Assembly (NCBI GenBank): GCA_001899685.1
Contig: MKWG01000039.1
Span: forward strand, 1 to 40,201
Origin: Sphingobacteriales bacterium 44-15
GTDB taxonomy: Bacteria; Bacteroidota; Bacteroidia; Chitinophagales; Chitinophagaceae
Length of the DNA stretch: 40,201 nucleotides
Direction: 5' to 3'
The translations under genes and the position numbers were made by a program. The stretch's first letter is position 1. The number at the start of each line of letters is the position of its first letter. Positions 17,681-26,848 of this stretch are shown in pieces. Under the pieces are notes generated by a model. That model ran no database searches. It saw nothing but the letters and a program-made list of their open reading frames with translations, and was not told the origin of the DNA.

Positions 17681-18697
17681 ATGTCTGATGTGCTAAAAAA
17701 ATATACCAGCCTGCTGCTGCCCTCTGAAAGGCTGGTGAAGGATATTGCTGCTTTGGATGGTGATATTATCATACTGGGTGTTGGAGGAAAGATGGGACCC
17801 GACCTGGCAAGGTTGTGCAAAGCAGCTATAGTAAAAGCAGGTGTAGAAAAGAAAGTGACAGGGATAGCAAGATTTTCAGAGCCCGGGCTGAGGGAAGAAC
17901 TGGAAAAGGAGGGTATAGTCACTATAAAAGCGGATCTTTTGGATAATGCGGTCTGGGATACGCTGCCAAAGGCAAAAAATGTATTATACCTGGCCGGTAC
18001 TAAATTCGGTACAAAAGGTAACGAGCCGTTTACGTGGGCAATGAATACTTATTTGCCTTCAAAAGTGGCTGAACATTACAAAGATTCCCGTATTGTTGTA
18101 TTCTCTACCGGTAATGTATACCCTCTTACAGAAGTATATAAGGGAGGAGCTGCGGAAGACATCCGCCCGGAACCTATTGGCGAATATGGACAGTCATGCC
18201 TGGGAAGGGAACGGATATTTCAATACTTTTCAGCTAAATACGAAACCCCTGTTCTTATCTATCGCCTTAATTATGCCAACGATGTAAAATATGGCGTGCT
18301 GCTTGAAATAGCGAAAGCTGTTTTAAATGAAAAGACAGTCGATCTTACCATGGGAAACGTGAATGTGATATGGCAGGGAGATGCAAATGAATTTGCTATA
18401 AGAAGTTTATTACACTGCGCAGTCCCTTATAAGATATTAAACATTACAGGACCGGAAAACGTATCTGTTCGCTGGGTAGCAGAATGGTATGGCGCATATT
18501 TTAATAAGAAGCCGGTTTTCAGTGGCGAAGAAGCGCATACTGCCCTGCTGAGCAATGCTACCGAAAGCTTCAGACTGTTTGGTTATCCTAATACCACACT
18601 TAAAGTAATGATGGAAATGATAGGAGAGTGGTTGCTGAATGCCGGGGAGACAATTAATAAACCAACACATTTTCAGGAAAGAGATGGAAACTACTAA
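17681..18697 (+). CDS. SDR-superfamily (epimerase/dehydratase-like) protein with altered active site
   Basis: The 338-residue protein has an extended-SDR fold: a nucleotide-binding GVGGKMG at residues 33-39 (GxxGxxG pattern), YLAGTKFG, and the strand VVFSTGNVYPL with Ser142. The YxxxK catalytic motif is present as Y169-G-Q-S-C173, so Lys is replaced by Cys, followed by the usual LGRE-type helix. Either the enzyme uses another proton relay, or it has a non-redox or binding role. It is the first gene of an operon with a DapA-like aldolase whose ATG lies inside this gene's 3' end (14-base overlap), a sign of linked translation. A role in sugar or sugar-acid metabolism is inferred from neighbours. 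Family assignment is good; the reaction is unknown. Confidence 0.8.
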   Translation: MSDVLKKYTSLLLPSERLVKDIAALDGDIIILGVGGKMGPDLARLCKAAIVKAGVEKKVTGIARFSEPGLREELEKEGIVTIKADLLDNAVWDTLPKAKNVLYLAGTKFGTKGNEPFTWAMNTYLPSKVAEHYKDSRIVVFSTGNVYPLTEVYKGGAAEDIRPEPIGEYGQSCLGRERIFQYFSAKYETPVLIYRLNYANDVKYGVLLEIAKAVLNEKTVDLTMGNVNVIWQGDANEFAIRSLLHCAVPYKILNITGPENVSVRWVAEWYGAYFNKKPVFSGEEAHTALLSNATESFRLFGYPNTTLKVMMEMIGEWLLNAGETINKPTHFQERDGNY

Positions 18698-19733
18698 GCA
18701 TACACCTACTGCATTGCCGGAAGGGATAAAAGCATTGCTGCACCGTGGCGTTGTTATTCCCGCGCATCCATTGGTATTACAACCAGGGAAAAAAAGTATT
18801 GATGAGGAAGCGCAAAAAGCTTTAACGCGTTATTATGTAAACAGCGGTGCAGGCGGTGTTGCGGTAGGGGTGCACACTACACAATTTGAGATACGGGATA
18901 AGACATTCAGCTTGTTTGAACCGGTATTAAAAACAGTAGCTGAAGCTATAGACGAATTAGCTTTGCCGGCGCCGTTCATAAAGATCGCGGGAATATGCGG
19001 GGATACCCGGCAGGCAGTTTCCGAAGCAGAGACTGCTTTGAAATACGGGTATCATATGGGGCTGCTGAGCATGGGAGGATTATCCGGTTATTCGGAAGAA
19101 CAATTGCTGGACAGGGTAAGAGCTGTGGCGGCTGTAATACCGGTATTCGGGTTTTATTTACAGCCTGCGGTAGGCGGCAGGATACTATCCTATGATTTCT
19201 GGCGGCAATTCGCTGAAATACCCGGAGTGCTTGCTATAAAGATCGCCGCCTTCAACCGCTATCATACCATTGATGTGGTTAAGGCTGTTTGTCATTCCTC
19301 AAGGCGGGATGAAATCGCGTTGTATACAGGTAATGATGATAATATTATTCCTGACCTGTTAACGCCATACCGGTTTACTATTGATGGAGCAGTAGTAGAA
19401 AAGGTTTTTGTCGGCGGCTTATTGGGGCATTGGGCATTTTGTACCGAGCATGCGGTTCAGGTTTTAAAAGAAGTAAAGCAATGTGTGGATAGTGGTTATA
19501 AAGGCGTGGAGAATTTACTGGCGAAAGGTATAGAAGTTACGGATACGAATGCCGCGGTATTTGATGTTGCCAATAATTTTCACGGGTGCATCGCGGGTAT
19601 TCATGAAATGCTACGGAGAGAGGGCTTAATGACAAACACAGCCTGTTTGCTGGAGAAAGAAGTGTTGTCGCCCGGTCAGCTTAAAAAGATTGATGATATT
19701 TGCACCAGGTATTTTCCTTTACTAATGTCATAA
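18684..19733 (+). CDS. DapA-like (dihydrodipicolinate synthase/N-acetylneuraminate lyase family) aldolase or dehydratase
   Basis: The ATG at 18684 (349 residues) is chosen. It overlaps the previous gene by 14 bases, while the frame extends 15 codons further upstream without family sequence. The TIM-barrel protein has the family's Tyr (GFYLQP, Tyr158) and Schiff-base Lys (LAIKIAAF, Lys186) with 28 residues between them, the same spacing as Tyr133/Lys161 of E. coli DapA. GNDD near 225 replaces the usual SGDD. The family includes keto-deoxy-sugar-acid aldolases and dehydratases besides DapA. With a LacI regulator and an SDR-like protein alongside, a sugar-acid substrate is more likely than lysine synthesis, but this is an inference. 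Confidence 0.85.
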   Translation: METTKHTPTALPEGIKALLHRGVVIPAHPLVLQPGKKSIDEEAQKALTRYYVNSGAGGVAVGVHTTQFEIRDKTFSLFEPVLKTVAEAIDELALPAPFIKIAGICGDTRQAVSEAETALKYGYHMGLLSMGGLSGYSEEQLLDRVRAVAAVIPVFGFYLQPAVGGRILSYDFWRQFAEIPGVLAIKIAAFNRYHTIDVVKAVCHSSRRDEIALYTGNDDNIIPDLLTPYRFTIDGAVVEKVFVGGLLGHWAFCTEHAVQVLKEVKQCVDSGYKGVENLLAKGIEVTDTNAAVFDVANNFHGCIAGIHEMLRREGLMTNTACLLEKEVLSPGQLKKIDDICTRYFPLLMS

Positions 19734-21727: not shown

Positions 21728-21946
21728 ATGAAATTGCAATCCTTGTTGACTGCTGTATTCGTTATCTGCGGGCTGGCTTATGTGCCCTCCCTGTTTGCGC
21801 AGACATTGCTTGTAGATGTAGAGGTGCCAATTGACGGCGGTGTCAGCCTGCTGGTGGCTGCCGGAGTTGCTTATGGCGCTAAAAAGGCTTATGATAAAAG
21901 GAAAAATCAAAAAGATGCCGAGGCGGTAGAAGCTGAAAGCAAATAG
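21728..21946 (+). CDS. PID-CTERM sorting-signal protein, putative exosortase substrate
   Basis: The 72-residue protein has a signal peptide (1-24, cleavage likely after SLFA). The mature part consists of VEVPIDGG (PIDGG at 34-38), a hydrophobic stretch at 39-50, a basic KKAYDKRK segment at 52-59 and an acidic tail. This is the tripartite form of exosortase C-terminal sorting signals: short motif, membrane segment, basic cluster. The PIDGG motif matches the PID-CTERM class known in silico from Bacteroidota. There is almost no protein besides the signal, so it may be a carrier or anchor peptide. The start ATG at 21728 is chosen because it gives a normal signal peptide; the frame continues upstream without such sequence. 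The exosortase gene follows 105 bases later. Confidence 0.85.
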   Translation: MKLQSLLTAVFVICGLAYVPSLFAQTLLVDVEVPIDGGVSLLVAAGVAYGAKKAYDKRKNQKDAEAVEAESK

Positions 21947-21969
21947 CACTAGGCCATTGTATATTATTC

Positions 21970-22046
21970 GTGAAAAGTGAGATGTGAGATGTGAAAAGAA
22001 CTTTCACATTTACGTTTCATGTTTCACGTCTCTCTGAAACTCTCTG
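21970..22046. repeat. GTGAGATGTGAAA-type repeat with hairpin between substrate and exosortase
   Basis: GTGAAAAGTGAGATGTGAGATGTGAAA variants on the left meet their reverse complements (TTTCACAT, GTTTCATGTTTCACGTC) on the right. The best stem is ATGTGAAA at 21989-21996 with TTTCACAT at 22002-22009, and longer imperfect pairing is possible. It is the same family as at 22685-22737, 32139-32160, 36301-36375 and 38125-38174. Confidence 0.7.
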
Positions 22047-22051
22047 GTATC

Positions 22052-22687
22052 ATGATGGCAAAATCCGTGATAAAACAGCTTAATTATTACCTCGATCTGC
22101 GTTTTCTCATAAAGTTCATTGCTCTTTTCCTGGTATTATATTATGTCAATATTTTTTTTGTACAACTGACATTGCCGGGAAAATGGCATAATGATTTTTT
22201 TGTGGAACATTTTAACTATATCGGTTGGCTGACCGGTTCTCTCACACATACTGCCAACCTTATTACGCATACTTTAGGATTAGATACTATTGTGGAAAGT
22301 AATGATACGCTTGCCCTGGCGCAGGGACCAAGAGTAGTTGTAAGATGGCAGTGTATAGGGCTTGGTATTATCAGCTTCTGGTTGGCATTTATACTGGCCC
22401 AGGATATGCGGCTCAAAAGAAAGATATTTCTTGGGCTGGGCGGTGTGCTGGTAGTTTGGTTTATGAATTGCTGCAGGATCGCGCTGTTGGTCTTTGCCCT
22501 CGATCGAAACCTCAAGCCATGGAAAAAAAAGCTTACCCTTATAGGAGGTATCAATCACCACGACCTTTTTAATTACGCCTGTTATGCCGTAATACTTCTT
22601 TCGATTTTTATATACTATAAAGTAAGCGCTAAAAAGGCTCAGCCGGGAGAATCTGCCGGTACTATGTCAGACGTGAAAGAAAAGTGA
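22052..22687 (+). CDS. Exosortase family protein (PID-CTERM associated)
   Basis: The ATG at 22052 is chosen (211 residues; ATG 22055 is equally possible). An upstream ATG at 22019 lies inside the GTGAAA-type repeat and is unlikely. The polytopic membrane protein has hydrophobic segments at about 18-40, 100-116, 126-150 and 172-190. The exosortase catalytic triad is visible: Cys101 in RWQCIGLGIISFW, Arg142 in MNCCRIALLV, and His169 or His170 in INHHDLFNYACY. Exosortases are transpeptidase-like enzymes that cut C-terminal sorting signals and transfer the protein to a surface anchor. The only obvious substrate here is the 72-residue PIDGG protein upstream. The subtype (XrtX, XrtN or another) cannot be settled by eye. 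Confidence 0.85.
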   Translation: MMAKSVIKQLNYYLDLRFLIKFIALFLVLYYVNIFFVQLTLPGKWHNDFFVEHFNYIGWLTGSLTHTANLITHTLGLDTIVESNDTLALAQGPRVVVRWQCIGLGIISFWLAFILAQDMRLKRKIFLGLGGVLVVWFMNCCRIALLVFALDRNLKPWKKKLTLIGGINHHDLFNYACYAVILLSIFIYYKVSAKKAQPGESAGTMSDVKEK

Positions 22688-22799: not shown

Positions 22800-23729
22800 A
22801 TGGATAATAACATATTCCCAAAGCAAACCGCTTTTTATAAAGGGAAAGTCCGTGATGTATATACTATCGGCAACGATTACCTGGTGATGATCGCCAGTGA
22901 CCGTATTTCGGCATTTGATGTGATACTGCCCAGGCCTATTCCTTTTAAAGGACAGGTATTGAACCAGATTGCCGCTATGATGCTGGGAGCAACAGCCGAC
23001 ATTTGCCCTAACTGGCTGCTTTCTACCCCTGCGCCTAATGCTGCCATAGGAAGAAAATGCATTCCTTTTAAGCTTGAAATGGTGGTGCGCGGACATCTTG
23101 TCGGGCATGCCTGGCGTACCTACAGCAGTGGTAAACGGGTATTGTGCGGCGTATCCATGCCTGAAGGATTGAAGGAAAATGACCCGTTCCCTTCTCCGAT
23201 CATTACGCCGGCTACTAAAGCCGAAGAAGGTCATGATGAAGATATTTCCCGGGAAGAAATACTGGAAAAAGGGCTGGCAACGGAAAAAGACTGGGAAATA
23301 CTTTCCCGCTATACCCTGCAACTGTTTGAACGGGGAAAAGCCATTGCAGCAAAGCACGGTCTGATCCTGGCCGATACAAAATATGAATTTGGTAAGATCG
23401 GCGATACCATTTACCTGATGGACGAAATACATACGCCGGATTCCTCGCGCTATTTTTATGCGGACGGTTTTGAAGAACGGCAAAAAAAAGGAGAACGGCA
23501 AAAACAGCTAAGCAAGGAGTTTGTGAGGGAATGGCTTATCGCGAACAACTTTATGGGCAAGGAAGGACAGATCGTCCCGGAAATGAGCGAAGACTGGGTA
23601 AAGACCATCAGTGAAAGATACATTGAGCTGTTTGAAAGAGTGACCGGCGAGACATTTAAACCGGAACCACTGTCACGGGAAGAGACCATTCAGCGCATTA
23701 CTTCGGCATTATACAACCTGAATATCTAA
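22800..23729 (+). CDS. purC: Phosphoribosylaminoimidazole-succinocarboxamide synthase (SAICAR synthetase)
   Basis: The 309-residue cytosolic enzyme joins CAIR and aspartate with ATP in purine synthesis. The start is typical: [33 protein letters not shown] carries the nucleotide-binding segment and the SAICAR synthetase signature. [23 protein letters not shown]-type sequence (here [15 protein letters not shown]) and LADTKYEFG are also conserved. The length is that of the longer PurC class (about 300) and not the 237-residue E. coli type. It has its own consensus promoter. It lies about 14 kb from purL in this window, so the purine genes are scattered. A lactonase-like gene begins 3 bases after its stop. 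Confidence 0.95.
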
Positions 23730-25028: not shown

Positions 25029-26144
25029 ATGTACAGGCGGTCTTTCAGAATAGCTGCGCATATTATTGGCTGGGTACTCTTTTTTACCCTTGTTATAGGG
25101 TTTGTTTTCAGGAGATCAAACGCCGGGGATATAGCTGCTTTTGTTTTGTCGCTATCTTTTTTGCGATTCGCGCTTCTTTTCATTGCTCTTTTCTATCTCA
25201 ACCTGTATGTACTGGCCCCGGGACTGTTTTTACAGCGAAAATATATCTTATATCTCATTTGTTGCCTGCTGCTGTTTGCTGGTATATTTTATTTGAAGCC
25301 TTACGAAAGAGTGTTGGGATTTCATCGTCCGGGCACAGAAGAAAAACGGGGTCCGGGGGCGAGGGAAAGAGACAAGCCACCACCAGAGCCTGAGAATGAT
25401 AGCCATGACAGAAGACCGCGGGAGCCGGGTCCCGGAGCAAGGAAAGGTGATCTGCATGTTGATATTACCAGCGTTATTCTTTTTATTGCATGTATGTCGG
25501 TGAGCAGTGGATTGTGCATAACAAAACGGTGGAGAATAACAGAGCAACGGGCTGTGAAGGCAGAAGCGGACAAAGCGAATGCGGAACTTTCATTTTTAAA
25601 AACACAGATCAACCCTCATTTCTTATTTAATACGCTCAACAATATTTATTTATTGGCTGTTGTAAAAAGCGATAATACGGCGTCCAGTATTTTGAAATTA
25701 TCCAATATGATGCGCTATTTTACTGATGAAGTGCATGAAGATTTTGTAACACTGGAAGACGAGGTAGATTGTATGAAAGACTATATTGATCTGCAATCGT
25801 TGCGATTAGGCAGCTCAACCAAAGTTAATTTTACTATTGAAGGCAGGGTACAGGACAGGAAGATAGCTCCCCTGGTTTTGATGACCTTTGTCGAAAACGC
25901 GTTTAAACATGGTGTGAGCAAACATGAGCAGTCTTTTATAGATATTCAATTGAACGTGAATGATAGCCATATTAAATTTACGTGCAGCAACAGGCTGTTT
26001 GCTAATAATAAAAATGCGGAGCGCACGGGCATAGGGCTGACGAATGTGCAGCAGCGGCTGGATTATTTGTATCCCGACAGGTACAGGTTATCAATGAATA
26101 CAGATAATGGAAATTATACCGTTAACTTATTAATACAGTTATAG
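25029..26144 (+). CDS. LytS-type sensor histidine kinase
   Basis: The 371-residue inner-membrane kinase has four predicted membrane segments (about 8-27, 36-64, 72-89, 146-164), then a coiled linker and a His_kinase (LytS/YehU class) domain with KTQINPHFLFNTLNN; the phosphorylated His is about 197. The C-terminal ATPase part has VLMTFVENAFKHGVS (N box) and TGIGLTNVQQRLDYLY (G box). Between the third and fourth membrane segments is a loop of about 55 residues, unusually rich in Pro, Arg, Gly, Glu and Asp (residues 92-145), predicted to face the periplasm. The LytTR regulator gene begins 5 bases after its stop. The signal is unknown. Confidence 0.9.
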   Translation: MYRRSFRIAAHIIGWVLFFTLVIGFVFRRSNAGDIAAFVLSLSFLRFALLFIALFYLNLYVLAPGLFLQRKYILYLICCLLLFAGIFYLKPYERVLGFHRPGTEEKRGPGARERDKPPPEPENDSHDRRPREPGPGARKGDLHVDITSVILFIACMSVSSGLCITKRWRITEQRAVKAEADKANAELSFLKTQINPHFLFNTLNNIYLLAVVKSDNTASSILKLSNMMRYFTDEVHEDFVTLEDEVDCMKDYIDLQSLRLGSSTKVNFTIEGRVQDRKIAPLVLMTFVENAFKHGVSKHEQSFIDIQLNVNDSHIKFTCSNRLFANNKNAERTGIGLTNVQQRLDYLYPDRYRLSMNTDNGNYTVNLLIQL

Positions 26145-26149
26145 GCAAA

Positions 26150-26848
26150 ATGCAGCTACGATGTGTTGCCATAGATGATGAACCGCTGAGTCTCCTGCTC
26201 ATAAAGGAATGGATATCCAAATTCCCGGAGCTGAAGCTTATTGAAACTTTTGAAGACGCTATTTCCGGAGCTGAATTCATCAGGCATACTCCCGTTGATC
26301 TTCTTTTTATAGATATACAGATGCCGGATATCACAGGGCTTGATATTGTGCGTTCGCTTGAGGAAAGACCCATGGTAATTTTTACTACTGCGCATAAAAA
26401 ATTCGCCCTTGAAGGCTTTGAGCTCGATGCCATTGATTACCTGCTGAAGCCTATTGCCCTTGAACGCTTTACAAAAGCTGTTACCAAAGCAATAGAGTAC
26501 GATGCATTTAAAAAAAGCAGGAATGAAACCCCGCCTGAAAACCTTTTTGTTTATTCAGAATACCGCCTGATCAGGATCGGCATTGACGATATTATATTCA
26601 TAGAGAGCCTGCAGGATTATATTAAGATACACCTGGCGGATAAAAAGGAAATCATGACCCTGATGCCACTGAAAAAAGTCCTGGAAAAGCTGCCTGGAAC
26701 GAGGTTTAAAAGAATACACAGAAGCTATGTGGTGGCTGTGAATAAAGTGGCTTCTGTCATAAGCCGTAAGGTACAGCTTGTTAATGGAACGGAGCTTCCT
26801 TTAAGCAATTCATACCTTGATTTTCTCGAAACCTGGAGAAACCCCTGA
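26150..26848 (+). CDS. LytTR-family response regulator
   Basis: The 232-residue regulator has an N-terminal receiver domain (Asp9/Asp10 pocket, phosphorylation site Asp55 in LLFIDIQMPD, Thr80 and Lys100 in YLLKPI). A C-terminal LytTR DNA-binding domain covers about 130-230 (FIESLQDYIKIHL, RIHRSYVVAVNKV, LPLSNSYLDFL). It forms a two-component system with the kinase 5 bases upstream. LytTR proteins usually bind pairs of direct repeats near promoters; the targets are not evident here. It is the last gene of the unit; 190 bases without a recognised gene separate it from the DUF3500-like gene. Confidence 0.93.
   Translation: MQLRCVAIDDEPLSLLLIKEWISKFPELKLIETFEDAISGAEFIRHTPVDLLFIDIQMPDITGLDIVRSLEERPMVIFTTAHKKFALEGFELDAIDYLLKPIALERFTKAVTKAIEYDAFKKSRNETPPENLFVYSEYRLIRIGIDDIIFIESLQDYIKIHLADKKEIMTLMPLKKVLEKLPGTRFKRIHRSYVVAVNKVASVISRKVQLVNGTELPLSNSYLDFLETWRNP

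Follow-up and report, generated by a model that had tools for sequence, protein, structure and literature searches.

A PID-CTERM and exosortase gene pair in a Sphingobacteriales genome, and the pairing of PID-CTERM genes with genes for T9SS cargo

Exosortases cleave their substrates at a sorting motif, and transfer the product to an acceptor. The PID-CTERM signal resembles that of the PEP-CTERM/EpsH system, for which the available part of the description likewise gives a C-terminal motif, a membrane helix and a basic cluster, occurring in several copies per genome (PMC1569441). The anchoring of T9SS proteins, in the accessible portions of two accounts, has been described through PorU and A-LPS (PMC7468200, PMC10202324); the former speculates, within that portion, that exosortase acceptors and the linking sugar of A-LPS may be chemically connected, and does not extend this to a pairing of PID-CTERM with T9SS. 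The locus described here lies in a window of 40,201 nucleotides from Sphingobacteriales bacterium 44-15 (positions 1 to 40,201 of contig MKWG01000039.1, assembly GCA_001899685.1), in which a PID-CTERM gene is followed by an exosortase gene (Table 1). This pair is real and belongs to a known family, with an XrtY-like enzyme that scores under the curated cut-off. What was not expected is how widely PID-CTERM genes are paired with T9SS cargo genes.

Table 1. Positions in the window of the PID-CTERM and exosortase genes, their parts, and the conserved flank
Feature	Position	Strand	Evidence
PID-CTERM protein gene, 72 aa	21728..21946	+	NF046080 48.3 bits, cut-off 26; translation
Predicted signal peptide, residues 1-24	21728..21799	+	sequence reading, rough site pattern
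Mature stretch ahead of the motif, 9 aa (QTLLVDVEV), without the DPD motif of cargo-linked genus copies	21800..21826	+	sequence, genus comparison
PIDGG motif, presumed exosortase recognition/cut site	21827..21841	+	sequence; NF046080 match
Putative hydrophobic membrane stretch of PID-CTERM protein	21842..21880	+	sequence reading
Basic cluster of PID-CTERM protein	21881..21913	+	sequence reading
Acidic tail of PID-CTERM protein	21914..21943	+	sequence; comparison with relatives
Exosortase gene, 211 aa, XrtY-like (ORF open from 22019)	22052..22687	+	TIGR04178 36 bits; NF046083 115.1 bits, cut-off 160; AlphaFold2 model pLDDT 87.2
Cys101 codon, exosortase	22352..22354	+	invariant in 26/26 aligned exosortases
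Arg142 codon, exosortase	22475..22477	+	invariant in 26/26 aligned exosortases
His169 codon, exosortase	22556..22558	+	invariant in 26/26 aligned exosortases
purC, conserved genus flank, not part of the system	22800..23729	+	NF009251 447 bits

The 72 aa protein encoded by the reading frame at 21728-21946 is a member of the NCBIfam PID_CTERM family, matching NF046080 over residues 33-57 and all 25 model positions (E 6.1e-13, 48.3 bits against a cut-off of 26). Read from the translation, a predicted signal peptide, the motif, a membrane stretch and a basic cluster appear to follow one another in this order, with the likely signal-peptide cut before Gln25. The anatomy put forward in the sequence-only reading, including the presence of an acidic tail, is therefore borne out by the translation and the model match. 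From what is known of the family, the protein would be exported by Sec, lose its signal peptide, and act as the substrate of the adjoining exosortase. This membrane-embedded Cys/Arg/His enzyme would then cut at PIDGG, and would join the resulting short peptide to a lipid or glycan.

The frame of the exosortase is open from 22019 to 22687, and its start is likely the Met at 22052, because this residue (Met12 of the window frame) aligns with the start Met in most relatives; residue numbers are counted from it. The Cys, Arg and His of the exosortase/archaeosortase family are what we take to be the active site, and the sequence-only reading had numbered all three correctly as Cys101, Arg142 and His169; rather than being lost in the alignment, each is invariant. 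Membership of the family is given by TIGR04178 (36 bits, cut-off 23). In the comparison with XrtX, XrtF, XrtY and XrtN that the same reading had proposed, exosortase Y (NF046083) gave the best score among the named exosortase models, at 115.1 bits under its cut-off of 160, and the protein also fell below the cut-offs of exosortase X (NF046081; 44.3 bits, cut-off 170) and exosortase F (TIGR04128; 30.1 bits, cut-off 90), with no XrtN model among the matches up to E 10 in a library not confirmed to include XrtN. Two relatives from the genus, and one exosortase from another genus of the family, reach 115 to 122 bits against the XrtY model, likewise under the cut-off of 160, and four exosortases scanned from farther relatives passed that of XrtX. 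The AlphaFold2 model of the enzyme is confident (pLDDT 87.2), but gives no information on mechanism, as a Foldseek search of the PDB gave nothing at E ≤ 0.001, and a sequence-profile search for solved relatives found none at E 1. A 13-base string, GTGAGATGTGAGA, stands at 21977 and 22684, flanking the exosortase gene on either side, and does not recur in the 104,692 bases compared from other loci of this genome.

A substrate consisting of little beyond a sorting signal had been regarded as unusual, yet tiny size is the rule of the family. In the order sample (149 genomes, 33 of them with PID-CTERM matches at E 0.01), all 44 of the 44 over-cut-off matches lie in open frames of at most 144 aa, and in the phylum sample (395 genomes, 62 with matches at E 0.001), every PID-CTERM frame among the matches listed is at most 200 aa, except for one of 995 aa in genome G314. 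Hence a bare sorting signal is the rule in the PID-CTERM family. The sole long frame among the matches listed (L136, G314:C1:2162000-2172000; 965 aa from the chosen Met) encodes a protein whose N-terminus is hydrophobic and which carries PIDGE close to its C-terminus, and is possibly a different kind of protein. Nor is the acidic tail unusual, as had been supposed, since at least three Asp or Glu residues follow the first basic residue in 27 of 97 PID-CTERM proteins, including eight of the nine genus copies listed. Among these 97 relatives the motif reads PIDGG in 76 and PVDGG in 12, and Gln stands at the likely +1 position of at least 75 peptides, with a site pattern that allowed only Q, G or E. 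From the signal-peptidase site to the motif, the median distance is 14 residues in the 89 of 97 proteins in which a site was found and roughly placed, and the window's nine residues are the minimum measured.

The two halves of the system go together across genomes. Exosortases were found in 62 of the 62 PID-CTERM genomes of the phylum sample, against 81 of the 333 others, and in 31 of the 33 in the order sample, against 34 of 116; the two order-sample exceptions are G026, in which the match is under the PID-CTERM cut-off, and G089, which is 78% complete. Among the 12 genomes of the genus, nine have PID-CTERM over the cut-off and eight of these nine have an exosortase, with G151 (800 contigs) carrying PID-CTERM alone, and G153 and G158 carrying neither. 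In G154 (L135, G154:C4), an exosortase remnant with stops is accompanied by no PID-CTERM over the cut-off, an apparent decay of the system.

A profile search of the window's own genome found two PID-CTERM genes over the cut-off, the window copy and a 71 aa copy on contig C7, which are 85% identical over residues 29-61; the window copy scores as high as that on C7 (48.9 and 48.3 bits, NF046080). The single exosortase over the cut-off is that of the window. What stands of the sequence-only interpretation is therefore an active-looking exosortase adjoining a substrate that is nearly a bare sorting signal, whereas its single-substrate logic is rejected, as the genome carries a second PID-CTERM gene, and the bareness and the acidic tail are not the oddities they had seemed. 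Besides the two genes over the cut-off, there are three weak PID-CTERM matches (C29, C23 and C17), and those on C29 and C23 were discarded, because they sit within longer frames or close to where these begin, rather than at a C-terminal end. Weak exosortase matches on C2 (15.3 bits) and C24 (14.3 bits) fall in frames of 808 and 391 aa.

The second copy begins 34 bp behind a T9SS type A cargo gene, the tail of which matches TIGR04183 with 36.8 to 37.4 bits (cut-off 23), and the frame of which, at 4176 aa, is the longest among the 28 T9SS matches of the genome. The working pair in this genome is probably that of C7, where the 71 aa peptide, encoded behind the giant cargo gene, would be processed in trans by the window exosortase, the only one found. 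Among the 26 over-cut-off T9SS tails of the genome, that of the C7 cargo alone has a PID-CTERM gene beside it, hence most T9SS cargo does without PID-CTERM.

The reverse association was assessed at 102 PID-CTERM places. The order contributed 43, comprising 42 of the 44 over-cut-off matches (two at contig ends being left out) and one of the eight below the cut-off; the phylum contributed 51, hand-picked from the matches listed and weighted to genomes without PorU rather than randomly drawn; and the genus contributed eight. The 995 aa frame of G314 was left out, and three genus copies outside this set (G155:C79, G150:C14 and G151:C707) had their T9SS tails judged by eye. As one of the 43 order places has no upstream ORF, and two of the eight genus places lose theirs to contig ends, 99 places were counted. 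T9SS tails were called with an HMM built from 25 tails of the window's genome, none of which is beside a PID-CTERM gene, and cross-counts between lists were made by hand.

By this HMM, the upstream neighbour carries a same-strand T9SS tail at 61 of the 99 places (order 19/42, phylum 37/51, genus 5/6), against totals of 40 among 946 further ORFs of these regions and 9 among 100 neighbours on the downstream side. False frames among the mechanically called ORFs (at least 120 aa, longest kept) lower the rate of the 946 controls, and likewise affect the downstream ones. Such a tail occurs in 50 of the 72 genomes, which between them cover 13 of the 17 families, although many places are related and so non-independent, a kinship that Fisher's p ignores. 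The gap between cargo and PID-CTERM genes is between -60 and 120 bp at 56 of the 61 places, and the two may be co-transcribed. With the curated TIGR04183 model, a tail was recognised in 17 of the 38 upstream neighbours that share the strand in the order set; for the main phylum set the figure was 29 of 37. No upstream tail was called by the HMM at 38 of the 99 places, the window's included; it also calls none in the large upstream genes of G145:C140, G027:C21 and G027:C49, which end T9SS-like by eye. Cargo, PID-CTERM and exosortase occur together at nine places by HMM, cargo without an exosortase nearby at 52, an exosortase without cargo at 12, and neither at 29 of the 102, with this count missing G077 and G013, where an exosortase lies just downstream by coordinates and which would both join the nine-place group. 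In the order set, an ogt-like gene directly precedes PID-CTERM in 7 of the 38 cases with a same-strand upstream neighbour (L054, L062, L075, L079, L081, L086 and L091; family f8), with no T9SS cargo or exosortase nearby.

In G278, G338 and G419, a near-identical PID-CTERM copy lies beside each of several cargo genes, and such provision of each cargo gene with its own copy suggests a need in proportion to cargo. The domains identified in six cargo proteins that were scanned, including IgGFc-binding, Big_1, PKD, MopE, fn3 and LTD among others, would suit adhesins. Neither a description of the PID-CTERM/T9SS cargo pairing nor the term 'PID-CTERM' was found in the literature searched, the coverage of which mostly excluded subscription journals, and the pairing is absent from the descriptions of NF046080, NF046081 and NF046083 in their displayed, rather than full, form.

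The history of the locus can be followed within the genus. At all eight of the eight exosortase-linked places in other species the exosortase is the next gene after PID-CTERM, and at seven of these a purC-like gene then follows, as in the window; hence the arrangement is more than chance. Of the six genus places that have an ORF upstream, five show T9SS cargo followed by PID-CTERM and then the exosortase; the purC-like gene comes next in G155:C13, G150, G159 and G149, and not in G152. In two of the five, G155:C13 and G150, the contig ends within the cargo ORF. The cargo of C7 in the window's genome is related to that of G152 over the last 740 aa, with 71% identity. The window keeps the PID-CTERM, exosortase and purC genes, with a gene for a cytochrome c/GSDH protein upstream instead of cargo. 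Upstream of this cytochrome c/GSDH gene, epimerase-like (17681-18697) and DHDPS-like (18639-19733) genes overlap by 59 bases, and elsewhere in the window the adjacent ORFs at 25029-26144 and 26150-26848 read as a histidine kinase-like and a LytTR-type response regulator-like protein. Nine of nine genus copies linked to cargo have a DPD motif in the linker, which both copies without cargo (those of the window and G157) lack, within a small and related set. The copy in G155:C186 carries DPD with its upstream side cut off, and that of G156 is truncated. In L119 (G155:C79), one of the nine DPD copies, the PID-CTERM frame is interrupted near its start, an apparent decay.

PorU was found over the cut-off in 45 of the 62 PID-CTERM genomes and 211 of the 333 others, and is therefore not rarer where PID-CTERM occurs. 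Scores were obtained for the best two candidates in each genome (2 of 22 in the window's genome, G000), making the absence of a confident PorU provisional, although genomes with up to 99 candidates still yielded a full-length PorU from the best two. On this basis 17 PID-CTERM genomes lack a confident PorU, 11 having no match at E 1e-10 and six having weak matches, the window's genome being among the latter with a best E of 6.7e-31; these six were drawn from the 12 weakest E-values (268 genomes with a match, 256 over the cut-off). SprA, the T9SS translocon, was present in all 17, and in 29 of 30 genomes checked. The genomes with SprA and no PorU match at E 1e-10 among the best two candidates are G235, G261, G271, G319, G350, G397, G419, G479 and G507 in family f44, and G274 and G506 in family f23. 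As a T9SS tail is upstream at 16 of 25 places in 15 of the 17 genomes without a confident PorU, the pairing seems not to need PorU. Equally, the lack of PorU does not demand the pairing, because G020 and G088 have SprA and weak PorU matches but no PID-CTERM.

We propose that PID-CTERM peptides, once processed by the exosortase, serve T9SS surface proteins as dedicated partners and perhaps as anchors: each peptide would be processed by the exosortase, would contact its cargo, and might hold it at the surface. This reading is credited with slightly less than an even chance. The same gene order would arise if T9SS cargo and PID-CTERM genes simply duplicated or moved together, or shared a promoter, without their products cooperating, and near-identical cargo/PID-CTERM units do stand in tandem in G278 and G338, while 29 of 102 places have neither an upstream T9SS tail nor an exosortase nearby. 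Such a cassette is nevertheless unlikely to account for a pairing that recurs with varied cargo across 13 of 17 families, that is one-sided (61/99 upstream, 9/100 downstream), and that is accompanied in the genus by a linker motif going with the cargo. More improbable still is the reading drawn from the window alone, of a small surface peptide, carrier or decoy that has nothing to do with other cargo: most places have an upstream T9SS tail, far above both controls, and the second copy in this very genome is cargo-linked, even though there is no T9SS cargo beside the window gene, nor an upstream tail at 38 of 99 places.

The window copy may have a history of its own, as a leftover that lost its cargo gene and whose linker drifted, the exosortase being kept for the C7 peptide. 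This would be compatible with the partnership proposed above, and would fit both the missing upstream cargo and DPD motif, and the loss seen elsewhere in the genus in the exosortase remnant of G154; it is a doubtful history, given that the signal peptide, PIDGG, membrane stretch and basic cluster are all intact, and that the score equals that of the C7 copy. Alternatively, the exosortase might tie the peptide to a lipid, with PorU then moving the cut cargo onto the N-terminus of the peptide. The available part of PMC10202324 gives free amines, short peptides and A-LPS as acceptors open to PorU, which scores over the cut-off in 45 of the 62 PID-CTERM genomes. However, N-terminal Gln in Bacteroidetes is usually converted to pyroglutamate (accessible parts of PMC5837995 and PMC10653852), which would leave no free amine on those peptides, at least 75 of 97 under a pattern restricted to Q, G or E, that probably begin with Gln once mature; furthermore, PID-CTERM with T9SS cargo occurs also where PorU was not found among the best two candidates. 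Hence a hand-over by PorU to the peptide N-terminus is unlikely, and this scheme in its entirety is given very little credence. Returning to the partnership of peptide and cargo, a more specific form of it is that a large T9SS protein is made with its own exosortase-modified peptide, which would tether it at the surface in trans. This might constitute a second sortase route beside PorU, or replace PorU in SprA lineages without a confident PorU, the window's genome included; so detailed a scheme is offered tentatively, and is on balance doubtful.

The pairing in 13 of 17 families ties the exosortase system to T9SS surface proteins, and offers a testable function for the tiny PID-CTERM proteins. 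The PorU and exosortase routes could be separated in the genomes with SprA and an exosortase in which PorU was not found among the best two candidates scored.

This system is similar to several that have been described, while differing from each. It shares its signal and enzyme family with NF046080 and its companion models NF046081/NF046083, as the window PID-CTERM is over the cut-off and the exosortase is nearest to XrtY; unlike the curated XrtY, the enzyme falls below the NF046083 cut-off (115.1 vs 160 bits). PEP-CTERM, in the part of PMC1569441 available, is a module on diverse exported proteins, whereas the PID-CTERM protein is approximately the module alone, with the large protein encoded by the neighbouring gene. 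XrtF of Flavobacterium johnsoniae is likewise an exosortase-family protein in a T9SS organism (PMC10936215, in part), although the window protein reaches just 30 bits against the XrtF model, with a cut-off of 90. In Table 2 of that partly available source, the xrtF deletion mutant has the same colonisation and biofilm phenotype row as porU and porZ, but FJ0334 and FJ0651 mutants, outside T9SS, share this row, hence the likeness is not specific and lends weak support. In T9SS type B cargo with its PorP/SprF shuttle, the gene for a surface protein is likewise followed directly by that of a partner dedicated to it, and this partner is proposed, in the portion of PMC12618676 available, to be made in proportion to the cargo. 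That partner is an outer-membrane protein, whereas the PID-CTERM partner is a peptide of about 70 aa, and the tails here are mostly type A. Finally, anchoring through PorU and A-LPS is likewise a sortase-like surface fixation of T9SS proteins; yet, in the parts of PMC7468200 and PMC10202324 available, PorU cuts the cargo itself, whereas the exosortase presumably acts on a separate peptide.
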